A stretch of DNA of 64,000 nucleotides from Sulfurisphaera javensis. GTDB lineage: Archaea > Thermoproteota > Thermoprotei_A > Sulfolobales > Sulfolobaceae. The stretch covers positions 930,001 to 994,000 of the forward strand of contig NZ_AP031322.1 in the NCBI RefSeq assembly GCF_041154675.1, in the 5' to 3' direction. Numbering within the stretch: the stretch's first letter is position 1; every line of letters begins with the position of its first letter. This document shows positions 16,909 through 24,024 of the stretch, one piece after another. The position numbers were made by a program, and so were the translations under genes. Below the pieces are notes generated by a model. It searched no databases, was not told the DNA's origin, and saw nothing but the letters and a program-made list of their open reading frames with translations.

Positions 16909-17663
16909 CTATTTCAAGCTTTCTGCTTGAGAAATTAACACGTTTAGAACGCTTTTACCTATTCTATCTCCAGTATATTTTCCTTCAAAATTATTTATTT
17001 CTATCCACTCTTTTAAAGATTTATAACCTAGTTTAGCTAACGCTGATGAAATTATATCCTCATAGTCTTTCACATTTACCATTTCTTCTTCTACAAAAGT
17101 GGCTATCCATAAGTTAAGTATTCTCTCTAATTCCTTTAACGGTTCTTTATGGTCATCAACTCTTATATCAATGTATTTTCCGACATTAAGAGGATCAAAC
17201 TCCTTTTCGCTTTTCTGCTCTTTTTTTACTACAATTATTGAAGCACTTTGCTTACCTCTTCTATCTCCTCCTTTTTCCTCACCAGCCTTTAATGCTCTAA
17301 GGATTTTCTCATATATTTTTCCCTTACCCTCAGCCTCTTTAGCCATTGCTTCTATAACTTCTTCACCAGCGAGTATATTTCCTTGAACAGTGAAGTTGTT
17401 TCCTATAATATGTCCAGCATAAGGATAACAATCTTTTCCAGTAAAAAGCTATACTTTGTCCTTTCGAGTCAACTATTCCTATTTGTCTTTTTTCCTTAAA
17501 GGATCTTGAGAAAGAAGTTTTTGCAAAGTTTCGTTCGCTGAATATTTCTCTAACAACTCTAACCCTTTTTTACCATACTCTAAATTTGCTAATGCTTGAG
17601 TTGCAATTGCTCCTACACCAGGCTTTAACCATGGAACAAAAGCACCAACAGCTAAGAATTTAC
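16909..17663 (-). pseudogene. DUF1028 (Ntn-hydrolase-like) gene, C-terminal part, frameshifted
   Basis: From the insertion point the frame reads KFLAVGAFVPWLKPGVGAIA, classic DUF1028, down to an in-frame TAG at 17481-17479. Homology continues in another frame (QIGIVDSKGQ) from an A6 run at 17488-17493, which has lost a base, and returns to the first frame after a run at 17443-17447 that has gained one (TGKDCYPYAGH, VQGNILAGEEV). The rest, from MAKEAEGKGK with KAGEEKGGDRRGKQSAS and YIDIRVDDHKEP, is intact for 145 residues. The N-terminus lies beyond the inserted element at 18926-18986. The family is thought to be Ntn-hydrolase related; function here is lost. Confidence 0.85.
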
Positions 17664-17681
17664 AATAAATGTGGGCAGAAA

Positions 17682-17691
17682 GCCTTTAGGC
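17682..17691. repeat. left-end palindrome of the insertion sequence
   Basis: GCCTTTAGGC, three-base arms around TTTA, 18 bases inside the left border. Its core resembles that of the larger right-end hairpin (GCC-TTA-GGC), as expected for the hairpins bound by the Y1 transposase. Confidence 0.55.
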
Positions 17692-17707
17692 GGGGATGAA
17701 TACCCAC

Positions 17708-17720
17708 AATATTTAAATAA
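17708..17720 (+). promoter_or_regulatory. TATA box of tnpB
   Basis: ATATTTAAATAAT is centred about 28 bases before ATG 17742, the spacing of a leaderless transcript. If so the messenger begins essentially at the start codon, inside helix P1 of the fold described for 17742-17835. Confidence 0.55.
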
Positions 17721-17741
17721 TACTCATAATTAAAATCCATT

Positions 17742-17835
17742 ATGGCTCCAGAGCGAGCTGTCCGTGAGGACAGTTCTATCGAGGAGGAAATCGCGACTGT
17801 AAGAATGAAGATTTCCTCCTCAGCTCTGGAGCCAT
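17742..17835 (+). other. predicted three-way-junction RNA (or cruciform) over the tnpB start
   Basis: Three helices close a 94-base unit. P1: ATGGCTCCAGAGC (17742-17754) pairs perfectly with 17823-17835, 13 bp. P2: 17755-17763 with 17768-17776, 9 bp including one G-U, capped by a GTGA tetraloop. P3: GAGGAGGAAAT (17781-17791) pairs perfectly with 17811-17821, 11 bp, with a 19-base loop that displays in-frame ATG 17805. Only TATC and one A are left unpaired at the junction. P1 buries the tnpB start codon. Such complementarity is far beyond chance for coding DNA. Confidence 0.75.
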
Positions 17836-18893
17836 TAGCTGAAAAATACATGAAGGCAAAACGTTATGTCCTTCGTTGGTTGTATGAGAATAAAACAACT
17901 TCTCGTAAAGAAGTACACAATGCATTATATAAGGTACTAAGAGAGGAATATGGCCTACCATCAAAGCTTGCAATTGATTGTTATCGTGATGCTATAGCAA
18001 CATACAAAGGATGGTTAAAGAACCCAAGAAGAGGAAGATTTCCAATAATGAAAAACATCTCCTTATGGTTAACACCAAAAGCAAGCTACACAATTGATCT
18101 CAAGAGCATGAAAGCAAAAATTCTTGGTCAAGAAGTTGAGATTGTGGGATATCCTCACAACCTGGATTTCTACAAGGATTGGGAGATTAAAGAAGCTAGG
18201 CTTGTTAAGAGGGCTGATGAGTGGTATCTACATGTGAAAATGGAAAAGAAGATGAAAATAGAAAGGGAAGTCAAAGGTCTTATAGCTGTTGATATTAACA
18301 TGGATTTTATTACTTTAGGCAATGATAAGCAAGTAATCAAGATACCAACTAGGCTAGATGACGCATACCACTACAAGAAATTAGCTGAGGGATTACAGAG
18401 GAAATACCCTAAAAGATGGAAGGAGAACAAGAGGATTTTGAATAGGATAAGACACTTTCACATAAAGGCAAGTAATATTCTCACAGACTTTGCTAGGAAA
18501 GTTGGTAAGTGGGTTATTGATGAGGCTATTAAATTTAGTGCCAACTATGTAGTACTTGAGAGACTAAACAGAATGATTTCTCATGTCAAGGAGTTAAAGA
18601 GAGACTATAGAGACAAATTATACTTGATGCAGTATAACCGTATTCAATATTGGATTGAGTGGGAGGCAAGGAAACATGGTCTTAATGTGGTTTATGTTAA
18701 TCCTAAGTATTCATCTATTACTTGTCCCAAATGCGGATCAAAAATGATTGAATCTGGTTATCGTATGCTTAAGTGTTAAAAGTGTGGTTTTGAGGATCAT
18801 CGTGATTATATAGCCGTAATGAACTTGTATGGGAGGGGGTCTCTGACCCTCTCAACTGCCTCCCAAATGAGAGATGTAATCCCGAATCGATGA
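17742..18893 (+). pseudogene. tnpB: TnpB RNA-guided nuclease gene with premature stop
   Basis: Reading from ATG 17742, the frame runs 345 codons to TAA 18777-18779, then continues open for 37 codons to TGA 18891-18893. RuvC-I Asp (LIAVDIN, D184) and RuvC-II Glu (VVLERLNR, E273) are before the stop; so is the first zinc pair CPKCGS. The second zinc pair (LKC-stop-KCGFED) is split by the stop, and the RuvC-III Asp in [10 protein letters not shown] is lost. A single CAA to TAA change explains it. TnpB proteins cut DNA guided by a right-end RNA; this copy should not cut unless the stop is read through. The first 21 residues before VRMKI look like an extension of the usual N-terminus. Confidence 0.88.
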
Positions 18894-18899
18894 GGGGAA

Positions 18900-18918
18900 C
18901 CTCCGCCTTAGGCGGAGG
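18900..18918. repeat. right-end hairpin of the insertion sequence
   Basis: CCTCCGCCTTAGGCGGAGG: eight-base perfect arms with a TTA loop, seven bases inside the right border. It is the likely transposase-recognition hairpin and would also lie near the 3' end of the TnpB guide RNA scaffold. Confidence 0.75.
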
Positions 18919-18925
18919 AAGTCAG

Positions 18926-18986
18926 TAGCAACACCAACTCCCCAAGCCTCCTCATTTGGATCATAAATGACTATTGAATACGTCAT
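18926..18986 (-). pseudogene. DUF1028 gene, N-terminal fragment
   Basis: Starts at ATG 18986 and reads MTYSIVIYDPNEEAWGVGVA before the insertion border. This is the standard N-terminus of DUF1028 proteins; Thr2 is the presumed N-terminal nucleophile of an Ntn hydrolase. It joins to the fragment ending at 17663 once the insertion sequence is removed. Confidence 0.88.
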
Positions 18987-19007
18987 ATTATATCCTCATA
19001 AGTTCTG

Positions 19008-19018
19008 ATATAAAAAGG
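19008..19018 (-). promoter_or_regulatory. TATA box of the split DUF1028 gene
   Basis: On the minus strand CCTTTTTATATC is centred about 27 bases before ATG 18986, which fits a leaderless message. The P450 gene diverges from the same 81-base gap. Confidence 0.5.
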
Positions 19019-19067
19019 TATAATAGATATATCTAAAATTTATTAGGATATAATTGTAACTAATATT

Positions 19068-20177
19068 ATGTATGACTGGTTTAAGGAGATGAGAAAAGAA
19101 AGCCCAGTTTACTATGATGGTAAAGCTTGGAATTTATTTAAGTATAGTGATTGCAAAATAGTTCTTAATGATCACAAAAGATTTTCCTCTAATTTAACTG
19201 GCTATAATGATAAGGTTGAGCAACTTAGATCTAATAGATTATTATTTGATATACCAACTAGATATACTATGTTAACTTCTGATCCTCCACTTCATGATGA
19301 GTTAAGAAGTATCGCTTCTGACGTTTTTACTCCATCTAACTTATCTATATATGAAGGATTGATAAGGGAAACTGTCACAAAATTACTTTCTGAAGTAGGT
19401 GAAGAGTTTGATGTAATGCAAAACTTAGCAATACCTTTACCTATAATAGTTATTTCTAAAATTCTAGGGATTGAAGCGGATTATAAAAAGATTAAAGATT
19501 GGTCAGATTTAGTGGCTTTGAGACTTGGTAAACCTAATGAGATTTTTTCTATTGGAAGAAAATATCTTGAACTAATAACTTATGCAAGAAGAGAAATTAA
19601 AAGCAGAGAAGGGAATAAGATAAAAGATTTAACTTCAAGAATAGCAAACTCCAATTTATCAGATATTGAGAAAGAAGGATATTTTATTCTTTTAATGATT
19701 GCTGGAAATGAAACAACAACTAATTTAATTGGGAATGCGATCGAAGATCTTACAATCTATGACTCATGGAATTATGTAAGAGAAAAAGGAGCAGTAAAAG
19801 CAGTAGAAGAAGTATTAAGATTTTCTCCCCCAGTAATGAGAACCATAAGATTAACCAAAGAGAAAGTTAAGATTAGAAATGAAGTTATTGATAGTAATGA
19901 ACTTGTTAGAGTATGGATAGCCTCAGCTAATAGAGATGAAGAAGTGTTTAATAATCCAGATGCTTTTGAACCAGATAGAACTCCTAATCCTCATCTTAGC
20001 TTTGGGTCTGGTATACATCTTTGTTTAGGTGCCCCATTAGCAAGATTAGAGGCTAGAATAGCACTAGAGGAATTTTCTAAGAAATTTAAAGTTAAGGAAA
20101 TAGTAGAGAAGGAAAAAATAGATAATGAAGTACTTAATGGTTATAAAAAATTGATAATACGCGTTAATAAATACTAG
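19068..20177 (+). CDS. cytochrome P450 of the CYP119 family
   Basis: 369 residues, the compact size of thermophilic CYP119 enzymes. Begins MYDWFKEMRKESPVYYDG; has RYTMLTSDPPLHDELR, the I-helix threonine in AGNETTTNL, the ExxR-type VEEVLRFSPPVMRT, and the heme loop LSFGSGIHLCLGAPLA with ligand C319. It strongly resembles S. solfataricus CYP119 and even more the S. tokodaii P450st as I recall them. Those enzymes hydroxylate fatty acids in vitro with peroxide or an archaeal ferredoxin; the natural substrate is unknown. An unknown gene follows 18 bases downstream. Confidence 0.95.
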   Translation: MYDWFKEMRKESPVYYDGKAWNLFKYSDCKIVLNDHKRFSSNLTGYNDKVEQLRSNRLLFDIPTRYTMLTSDPPLHDELRSIASDVFTPSNLSIYEGLIRETVTKLLSEVGEEFDVMQNLAIPLPIIVISKILGIEADYKKIKDWSDLVALRLGKPNEIFSIGRKYLELITYARREIKSREGNKIKDLTSRIANSNLSDIEKEGYFILLMIAGNETTTNLIGNAIEDLTIYDSWNYVREKGAVKAVEEVLRFSPPVMRTIRLTKEKVKIRNEVIDSNELVRVWIASANRDEEVFNNPDAFEPDRTPNPHLSFGSGIHLCLGAPLARLEARIALEEFSKKFKVKEIVEKEKIDNEVLNGYKKLIIRVNKY

Positions 20178-22645: not shown

Positions 22646-22722
22646 AATACTAAACTCTCATTTCATCCTTAAATTGTTTTGTAAGCATAACTATATTTAA
22701 CACAAAACAAAGCAATTTCATT

Positions 22723-24024
22723 ATGAAATACGATGTTATTATAATAGGTGCTGGACATAATGGCTTAGTCTCAGCAAACTATTTAGTTAGTAAAGGTCTT
22801 AAGGTACTTGTTATTGAAGCTAGAAACAGGCCAGGAGGTATGGCTGATACAGCTGAGTATAAAGGTATAAAATACAGTAGAGCATCTTACGTTTTAGGAT
22901 TAATGCCTAAAAGGATCGAAGAAGAGCTAGGAATTCATTTTCCAACATTTGATTCAGAAATTGCTGACATTTATGTAACTGATGATAATGAAGTGCTTTA
23001 TCTCTGGAGAGATAATGAAAAAAGGTATGAGGAATTTAAAAAACATGGTCAGAATAAGTATGTTGAACTTGATAGGTTAATTTTTAAACTAAAGAAATTG
23101 GTAGAAGAGAAACTTCTATTTCTTCCAAAACCACCTTCATATGACGACTTTGAGAAACTAGTAGAAGGTACTGAACTAGAAATATTTTTAGAACCTACTA
23201 AAAAAGTCCTTAGTGAATATTTAGATAGTAAATTTCATGAAGCTATAGCATACGCATTTATGTTCAGCTTACCAGCTTACATAATGGCATATTACTTTAG
23301 TTTAGATTGGAAAATTGTCAGAGGTGGTATGGGAACTGTAGGACAAATATTAGCTGAAAATGCTAAGAGACTAGGAGTTGACATAATGTATAACACAGAA
23401 GTTAAAGAGATAATAATTAAAGAAGAGGAAGCAAAAGGTGTAATTACTAGCTCTGGAAAGAGTATTGAAAGTAAAGTAGTTCTTCATGCAGGAAGCCCAG
23501 TATTATTAAACAGACTAACTAATGGGCTCTTAAATGTATATCACCCTAATTTTAGGCCAGCATGGAAAAGATGGACTATACTACTAAAGAATCCACCAAC
23601 ATTACCAGATTACATTAAAAACCATTTAGATGTTCTTTTCACGTTACCAATAGGAGAAATCACAATTCCGTCTGGTGTTGATGAGACTTTAGGTGCACAT
23701 GTGATAACAAGCATGGGAGGAGATATTGAAGAAATTAAAGAGTTCTTTAAAATTAAAGATGAAAATGTAATTTATATCGATTTACTTACTTCTGACAAAT
23801 TAGAGAAAGAATACTTAGCTCCATATGGAGATATGAATCATATGCCTATGACTCCAGATTTCATGTTTGATAGCAGACCAGTAAAAGGATGGGGATATTC
23901 CACACCAATAAAGAACCTTTACATAACCGGCTCTGGTACTTATCCTGGAGGACAAGTTACCGGTATCCCTGGAAGAAATACAGCAATGAAAATATTGGAA
24001 GATTTGGGGAAAAAGTTAATTTAA
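22723..24024 (+). CDS. FAD-dependent oxidoreductase, phytoene-desaturase-like
   Basis: 433 residues. N-terminal dinucleotide fold VIIGAGHNGLVSANYLVSKG with VIEARNRPGGMADT, then YKGIKYSRASYVLG, the GGMGTVGQILAENAKRLG motif of the phytoene desaturase/PYROXD2 group, and a C-terminal FAD segment NLYITGSGTYPGGQVTGIPGRNTA. Such enzymes oxidise isoprenoid or other hydrophobic substrates. There is no phytoene synthase nearby, so carotenoid synthesis is not supported. A TATA-like ATATTTAAC lies about 30 bases before ATG. The next gene starts 19 bases on. Confidence 0.85.
   Translation: MKYDVIIIGAGHNGLVSANYLVSKGLKVLVIEARNRPGGMADTAEYKGIKYSRASYVLGLMPKRIEEELGIHFPTFDSEIADIYVTDDNEVLYLWRDNEKRYEEFKKHGQNKYVELDRLIFKLKKLVEEKLLFLPKPPSYDDFEKLVEGTELEIFLEPTKKVLSEYLDSKFHEAIAYAFMFSLPAYIMAYYFSLDWKIVRGGMGTVGQILAENAKRLGVDIMYNTEVKEIIIKEEEAKGVITSSGKSIESKVVLHAGSPVLLNRLTNGLLNVYHPNFRPAWKRWTILLKNPPTLPDYIKNHLDVLFTLPIGEITIPSGVDETLGAHVITSMGGDIEEIKEFFKIKDENVIYIDLLTSDKLEKEYLAPYGDMNHMPMTPDFMFDSRPVKGWGYSTPIKNLYITGSGTYPGGQVTGIPGRNTAMKILEDLGKKLI

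Follow-up and report, generated by a model that had tools for sequence, protein, structure and literature searches.

Start codons that lie inside a stable helix raise the question of whether the pairing is maintained for its own sake or simply follows from the encoded peptide. We addressed this question for a tnpB gene of Sulfurisphaera javensis found in the window, i.e., the whole 64,000-nucleotide stretch of DNA that was analyzed. An earlier note had drawn helices of 13, 9, and 11 bp over the beginning of this gene. Folding nucleotides 17742 to 17835 as RNA yielded one dominant structure, a three-way junction with a minimum free energy of -59.8 kcal/mol (Table 1). P1 and P2 had the sizes proposed, and P1 indeed holds the start codon, while P3 comprises 12 bp and a 17-nt loop instead of the 11 bp and 19 nt claimed. 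Only positions 17777 to 17780 and 17822 are left unpaired at the junction. The P2 loop reads GUGA in the window copy and GCGA in other copies, and the P3 loop consists of the codons for the beginning of TnpB strand beta-1. Rfam gave no match above the gathering score in this region.

Two null models were applied, consisting of 200 dinucleotide shuffles and, for each gene, 200 synonymous recodings leaving the protein unchanged. The shuffles reached -26.8 ± 3.3 kcal/mol, and none of the 200 equaled the native sequence (z = -9.97). The recodings averaged about -28 kcal/mol, again without a single match among 200 (z = -6.8). When the first 108 nt of each of the 44 long open reading frames (ORFs) of the window were submitted to the synonymous test, tnpB had the lowest value (z = -9.7), the other 43 having a mean z of 0.10 and a minimum of -2.6. 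Windows further downstream in the tnpB ORF were ordinary in the same test. At 80°C the junction still had an energy of -18.4 kcal/mol, and because the fold persists at this temperature, we consider a simple RNA thermometer unlikely.

Table 1. Features of the tnpB element, in window positions
Feature	Position	Strand	Basis or remark
Solo-tnpB IS200/IS605 (IS1341-like) element	17664..18925	+	5' flank TTTAC (17659-17663); 3' end TCAG
Left-end hairpin region GTGGG...CCCAC, apart from the three-way junction	17671..17707	+	Kept in most copies
TATA box TTTAAATA	17712..17719	+	Sequence; centre 26-27 nt before ATG
tnpB ORF, 345 aa	17742..18779	+	TAA at 18777-18779
Three-way-junction RNA domain (start-codon lid)	17742..17835	+	Folding, covariation, synonymous test
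P1 5' strand, holds AUG start codon	17742..17754	+	13 bp with 3' strand
P2 hairpin (17755-17763/17768-17776), 9 bp, GNRA loop	17755..17776	+	Folding, alignment
P3 hairpin (17781-17792/17810-17821), 12 bp, 17-nt loop	17781..17821	+	Folding, alignment
P1 3' strand	17823..17835	+	Folding
Right end, presumed omega-RNA scaffold, ending ...GGAGGAAGTCAG	18823..18925	+	Nearly constant in family

The element carrying this fold has only tnpB, without tnpA, between its ends, which are common to other copies. Joining TTTAC to TAGCAACACC (an empty site reconstructed by eye at 17663/18926) restores an open minus-strand frame (...GVASKFLAVG...), and we take the interrupted gene to be DUF1028-like. The insertion lies 3' of a short TTAC-like motif, and a target duplication is absent. 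The window TnpB matched PF07282 (RuvC/zinc ribbon) above the cutoff (E = 4e-10) and solved TnpB/Cas12f chains weakly. Used as query against public genome and viral contigs at the protein level, it returned no matches. Its TAA comes ahead of the final pair of Cys residues and the third Asp of RuvC, and the frame runs on past the stop; judged from the sequence, the product is probably inactive, its C terminus being lost to the premature stop. Since its TnpB is truncated, the window copy may be decaying. Both ends and the 5' fold are nevertheless intact.

By analogy, the right end is presumed to be the omega-RNA scaffold, and a guide would begin at 18926. A subthreshold Rfam hit to HgcC covers positions 18833 to 18938 (17.2 bits, E = 0.39), and in other archaea HgcC may represent the omega-RNA of a TnpB. 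A 480-bp segment (window positions 18744 to 19223) recurs with 99.8% identity at about 858039 to 858519 of G000 C1 (L003) and comprises the 3' end of tnpB including the premature TAA, as well as the right end and around 300 bp of flank; joined there to another 5' half at another locus, L003 is a recombinant or duplicated copy. The truncated copy at 22672 to 22848 of G000 C1 (L006/L029) consists of the left end and the three-way junction only, followed by unrelated sequence. In L162 and L146, a second low-energy region was detected about 770 to 865 nt into the tnpB ORF (z = -4.0 and -3.3 versus synonymous recoding), within the coding sequence and 5' of the right end.

Further copies of the element are found in its own genome, and 13 to 14 in the genome of another genus (G026). 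A helix closing the start codon and showing compensatory changes was identified in about 15 related copies. We aligned the window copy with 16 relatives, in which the fold is largely preserved and almost always yields the same junction. Across this alignment, 91.6% of the cells were paired, and shifting the partner strand by 1 to 3 columns reduced pairing to 35 to 49%. Both sides of a pair had changed in 18 cells compared to 5.8 in shuffles (0/500), and the covariation score was 0.102 compared to 0.069 (0/500), with many copies sharing one genome, so that a single inherited change is counted repeatedly. Compensatory changes, proposed in the earlier note as a check, were present in all three helices: at the end pairs of P1, in P2 (G-C to A-U and U-A to C-G), and in P3 (G-C to A-U). 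The P2 change from GUC/GAC to ACC/GGU keeps the pairing while altering the amino acids (V to T and D to G). P1 was kept in a third genus (G025) despite much changed DNA, and the window copy differs from one relative (L139) by a 6-nt deletion near the start and a C-to-A change that enables CAU/AUG pairing. Because compensating mutations keep this kind of fold in related tnpB genes across thermophilic archaea, it is an RNA control element or an RNA product and no coincidence of the coding sequence, and its selection as nucleic acid is well supported.

TnpB proteins sharing 50 to 58% identity have different N termini but a common RNA plan. The MARRVKAIRATVSMKI genes (MARR branch) form P1 from GGCUAGGAGGG/CCCUCCUAGCC and have a short P3 and no P2, an added module; the MGRRAKK... 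genes build P1 and P3 from other sequences; and the MSSPVKG... genes form a three-way junction of unrelated sequence. In every group, the 5' strand of P1 starts within the AUG. Most genes of this wider family were significant in the synonymous test (z of -3 to -11). Whole-domain energies were weaker in the MARR branch (z of -1.1 to -3.9), the test being weak in some of its genes (-1.1 and -1.4); its P1 codons are nearly frozen, with a synonymous identity of 0.94 over the first 12 codons versus 0.66 ± 0.07 in the body of the gene. For several members, a test relying solely on the longest helix gave weak results, P1 being broken up by bulges and mismatches; the case is carried by energy, covariation, and codon conservation. 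We considered a 5'-3' switch based on pairing of the P3 3' strand with the right end (17810 to 17819 with 18914 to 18923) but abandoned it, since the MARR branch has not kept this complementarity (P3 arm GATCGC; right ends). The fold is a constant feature of this wider group and no peculiarity of the window copy. It was not clearly seen in the other TnpB lineages sampled in the phylum and is therefore no general TnpB property.

A second solo-tnpB family provided a link to published RNAs. For SSO_RS05855 and SSO_RS06560 of S. solfataricus, Bathke et al. report that the first ~150 nt give rise to RNase R-resistant circular RNAs (circRNAs) bound by the exosome, which rank among the most abundant exosome-bound circles (PMC7667871). 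For each gene, all four published primers fit tnpB genes starting with MPTLGFRFRAY in an S. solfataricus-like genome (G016), and by this sequence match we identify the circRNA genes as solo tnpBs of the second family. P1 of these genes, formed by UGCCCACCUUAGGGU...ACACCUUAAGGUGGGCA, has 15 bp and extends from the AUG to position ~114, with the convergent primers located on its two strands. Across relatives within the Sulfolobaceae, 98% of the cells were paired, double changes affected 6 of the 15 P1 pairs (one of which occurs as CG, AU, UA, and GC), and the covariation score was 0.336 versus 0.162 in shuffles (0/500), or 0.319 versus 0.170 once three further sequences were included, taken from genomes that belong to another family of the phylum. 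Synonymous z values ranged from -4.3 to -8. The fold was absent from two relatives (L180 and L183; ~36% identity) located after tnpA or what remains of it, and L182 was borderline in the synonymous test (z = -2.1). On inspection, in a comparison with bulge-helix-bulge circRNAs, P1 was uninterrupted both in the window (13 bp) and in the second family (15 bp).

The earlier note had also predicted a leaderless mRNA from the TATA box of the window copy, a view supported by the constant distance of this box across related elements. Nearly all of them have a TATA-like box centered 24 to 28 nt ahead of the start, which places the transcript start at the AUG; the tnpB mRNA probably lacks a leader and begins with P1. 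Leaderless mRNAs make up 69% of the mRNAs in S. solfataricus, where their recruitment relies on pairing between the AUG and the anticodon (PMC7531240).

As for the encoded peptide, the N-terminal extension varies in length and sequence in the protein alignment, and conservation begins at TVxMKI. AlphaFold assigned a pLDDT below 50 to residues 1 to 11 and placed the first strand at residues 12 to 24 (mean pLDDT, 77.7; pTM, 0.47). The coding role of the first 21 residues had been doubted, and an in-frame ATG had been pointed out in the P3 loop, where TnpB homology begins. The peptide encoded by P1 and P2 looks free to vary. The loop ATG is an unlikely start because Met22 falls inside the modeled protein fold, midway along the first beta strand, and this ATG is absent from the MSSPVKG...STVTFRI branch.

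Could the pairing be a chance product of the peptide, whose Glu-rich and then Ser-rich codons (GAG/GAA and TCC runs) are able to pair? We give this reading hardly any credence: none of the 200 synonymous recodings matched the native fold, compensations occur that alter amino acids, and unrelated sequences rebuild the helix. A DNA signal, in the form of a hairpin or cruciform on which a TnpA transposase acts in trans, was among the original proposals and is conceivable inasmuch as IS200/IS605 ends use DNA hairpins and the window element has no tnpA of its own. It is nonetheless very unlikely. The end hairpin GTGGG...CCCAC is distinct from the three-way junction and is also present in copies without tnpB, and the tnpA-linked tnpB genes examined have no fold. 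Moreover, the same genome contains scattered short elements that have both ends yet neither tnpB nor the fold, and mobility in trans therefore does not require the fold. Those at 923209 to 923411, 1020499 to 1020662, 2362968 to 2363134, and 1035461 of G000 C1 (L007, L009, L010, and L013) are mobile or once-mobile stand-alone omega-RNA-like cassettes. Finally, the P1 columns of both families contain 28 G-U but only 5 A-C cells (23:4 for the second family; 5:1 for the close family, counting the P1 core), which favors one strand, the coding strand, as RNA or top-strand single-stranded DNA. This asymmetry is uneven, P3 of the close family having no G-U and 4 A-C cells.

With selection on the RNA well supported, the two RNA readings offered at the outset, a switch on TnpB synthesis and a processed small RNA, remain the leading ones. 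With modest confidence, we favor an RNA lid, a structure that restricts the translation of TnpB and can also remain behind as a stable 5' RNA. A conserved cis-acting domain would be formed by the first ~95 nt of the tnpB mRNA. In a leaderless mRNA, the AUG would be the 5' end and the outermost part of P1, whose partner strand sits about 80 to 100 nt into the coding region. Folded at growth temperature, the closed domain would hide the AUG from the initiator tRNA, and since leaderless initiation depends on AUG-anticodon pairing, initiation would be throttled. TnpB would be made only rarely, while the remaining transcript could still supply the 3' omega-RNA, and the domain may survive cutting of the mRNA as a discrete 5' RNA. 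We infer such a translational brake, together with a benefit to the element and its host. A permanently closed lid would block all TnpB synthesis unless it were opened.

Selection might instead act on the released molecule, a stable and possibly circular 5' RNA working in trans on targets such as TnpB, other mRNAs, or RNA-binding proteins, with burial of the AUG as a side effect. The exosome-bound circles from two S. solfataricus tnpB 5' ends (PMC7667871) and the Salmonella IS200 tnpA 5' RNA discussed below speak for this reading, but P2, P3, and the loops vary freely between branches, unlike a shared binding site, and the constant point is the helix at the AUG. It is compatible with the brake, and we place it second, as rather unlikely to be the primary function. 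Alternatively, P1 could stabilize the 5' end of the transcript against decay. It lies at the predicted extreme 5' end and is stable at 80°C, and S. solfataricus is known to have a 5'-3' decay pathway that aIF2-gamma counteracts (PMC7531240). We regard this as improbable, since a shorter hairpin would suffice and the presence of the AUG in the helix in all groups would be left unexplained.

If the RNA lid is correct, a covarying coding-sequence RNA that closes a leaderless start would be a mode of control new to the papers we found, and compensatory P1 mutants should bring back both repression and the circle. It would also offer a structural explanation for the unexplained S. solfataricus circRNAs. 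Control of the TnpB dose matters because TnpB, from which the Cas12 nucleases descend, relies on guide-directed cutting for its maintenance in genomes. A broader idea, which we put forward tentatively and hold to be doubtful, is that solo-tnpB elements of the Thermoproteota have a two-ended design, with a guide RNA at the 3' end and a 5' domain that is cut off, circularized, and active as RNA, setting the dose of TnpB. Such a domain could bind, for example, TnpB or the exosome.

Structured 5' ends of insertion sequence transcripts are known in bacteria; in a search of open-licence papers, no covarying structure closing the start codon was found for archaeal tnpB mRNAs. The available portions of the circRNA papers (PMC7667871; PMC12558985), which concern the other TnpB family, report the circles and do not mention a fold, start-codon pairing, or conservation; a stable processed 5' RNA is reported there for this second family only (S. 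solfataricus; PMC7667871). The genes concerned, SSO_RS05855 and SSO_RS06560, are by primer match solo tnpBs in which P1, starting in the AUG, closes the first ~114 nt. The TnpB omega-RNA is likewise a structured RNA overlapping tnpB in the same element, but it occupies the opposite end of the transcript and contains a guide, which the 5' domain lacks. In ISPpu9, according to the available text (PMC8450116), mRNA structure also regulates transposase expression, but this bacterial system uses a 5' untranslated region (UTR) with two small RNAs and not the coding sequence. A direct parallel to both the lid and the released RNA is Salmonella IS200 tnpA, in which a stable structure in the first ~110 to 125 nt conceals the site of initiation and is, in addition, the source of a stable 5' small RNA of ~111 to 125 nt with targets (PMC12594629). 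Like 5'tnpA, the window element has, by prediction and covariation, a structured 5' end of about 100 to 125 nt closing the initiation site. The Salmonella structure, however, belongs to a bacterial tnpA and hides the ribosome-binding site from within the 5' UTR, whereas that of the window element belongs to an archaeal, probably leaderless tnpB, lies in the coding region, often forms a three-way junction, and has the AUG in its closing helix.
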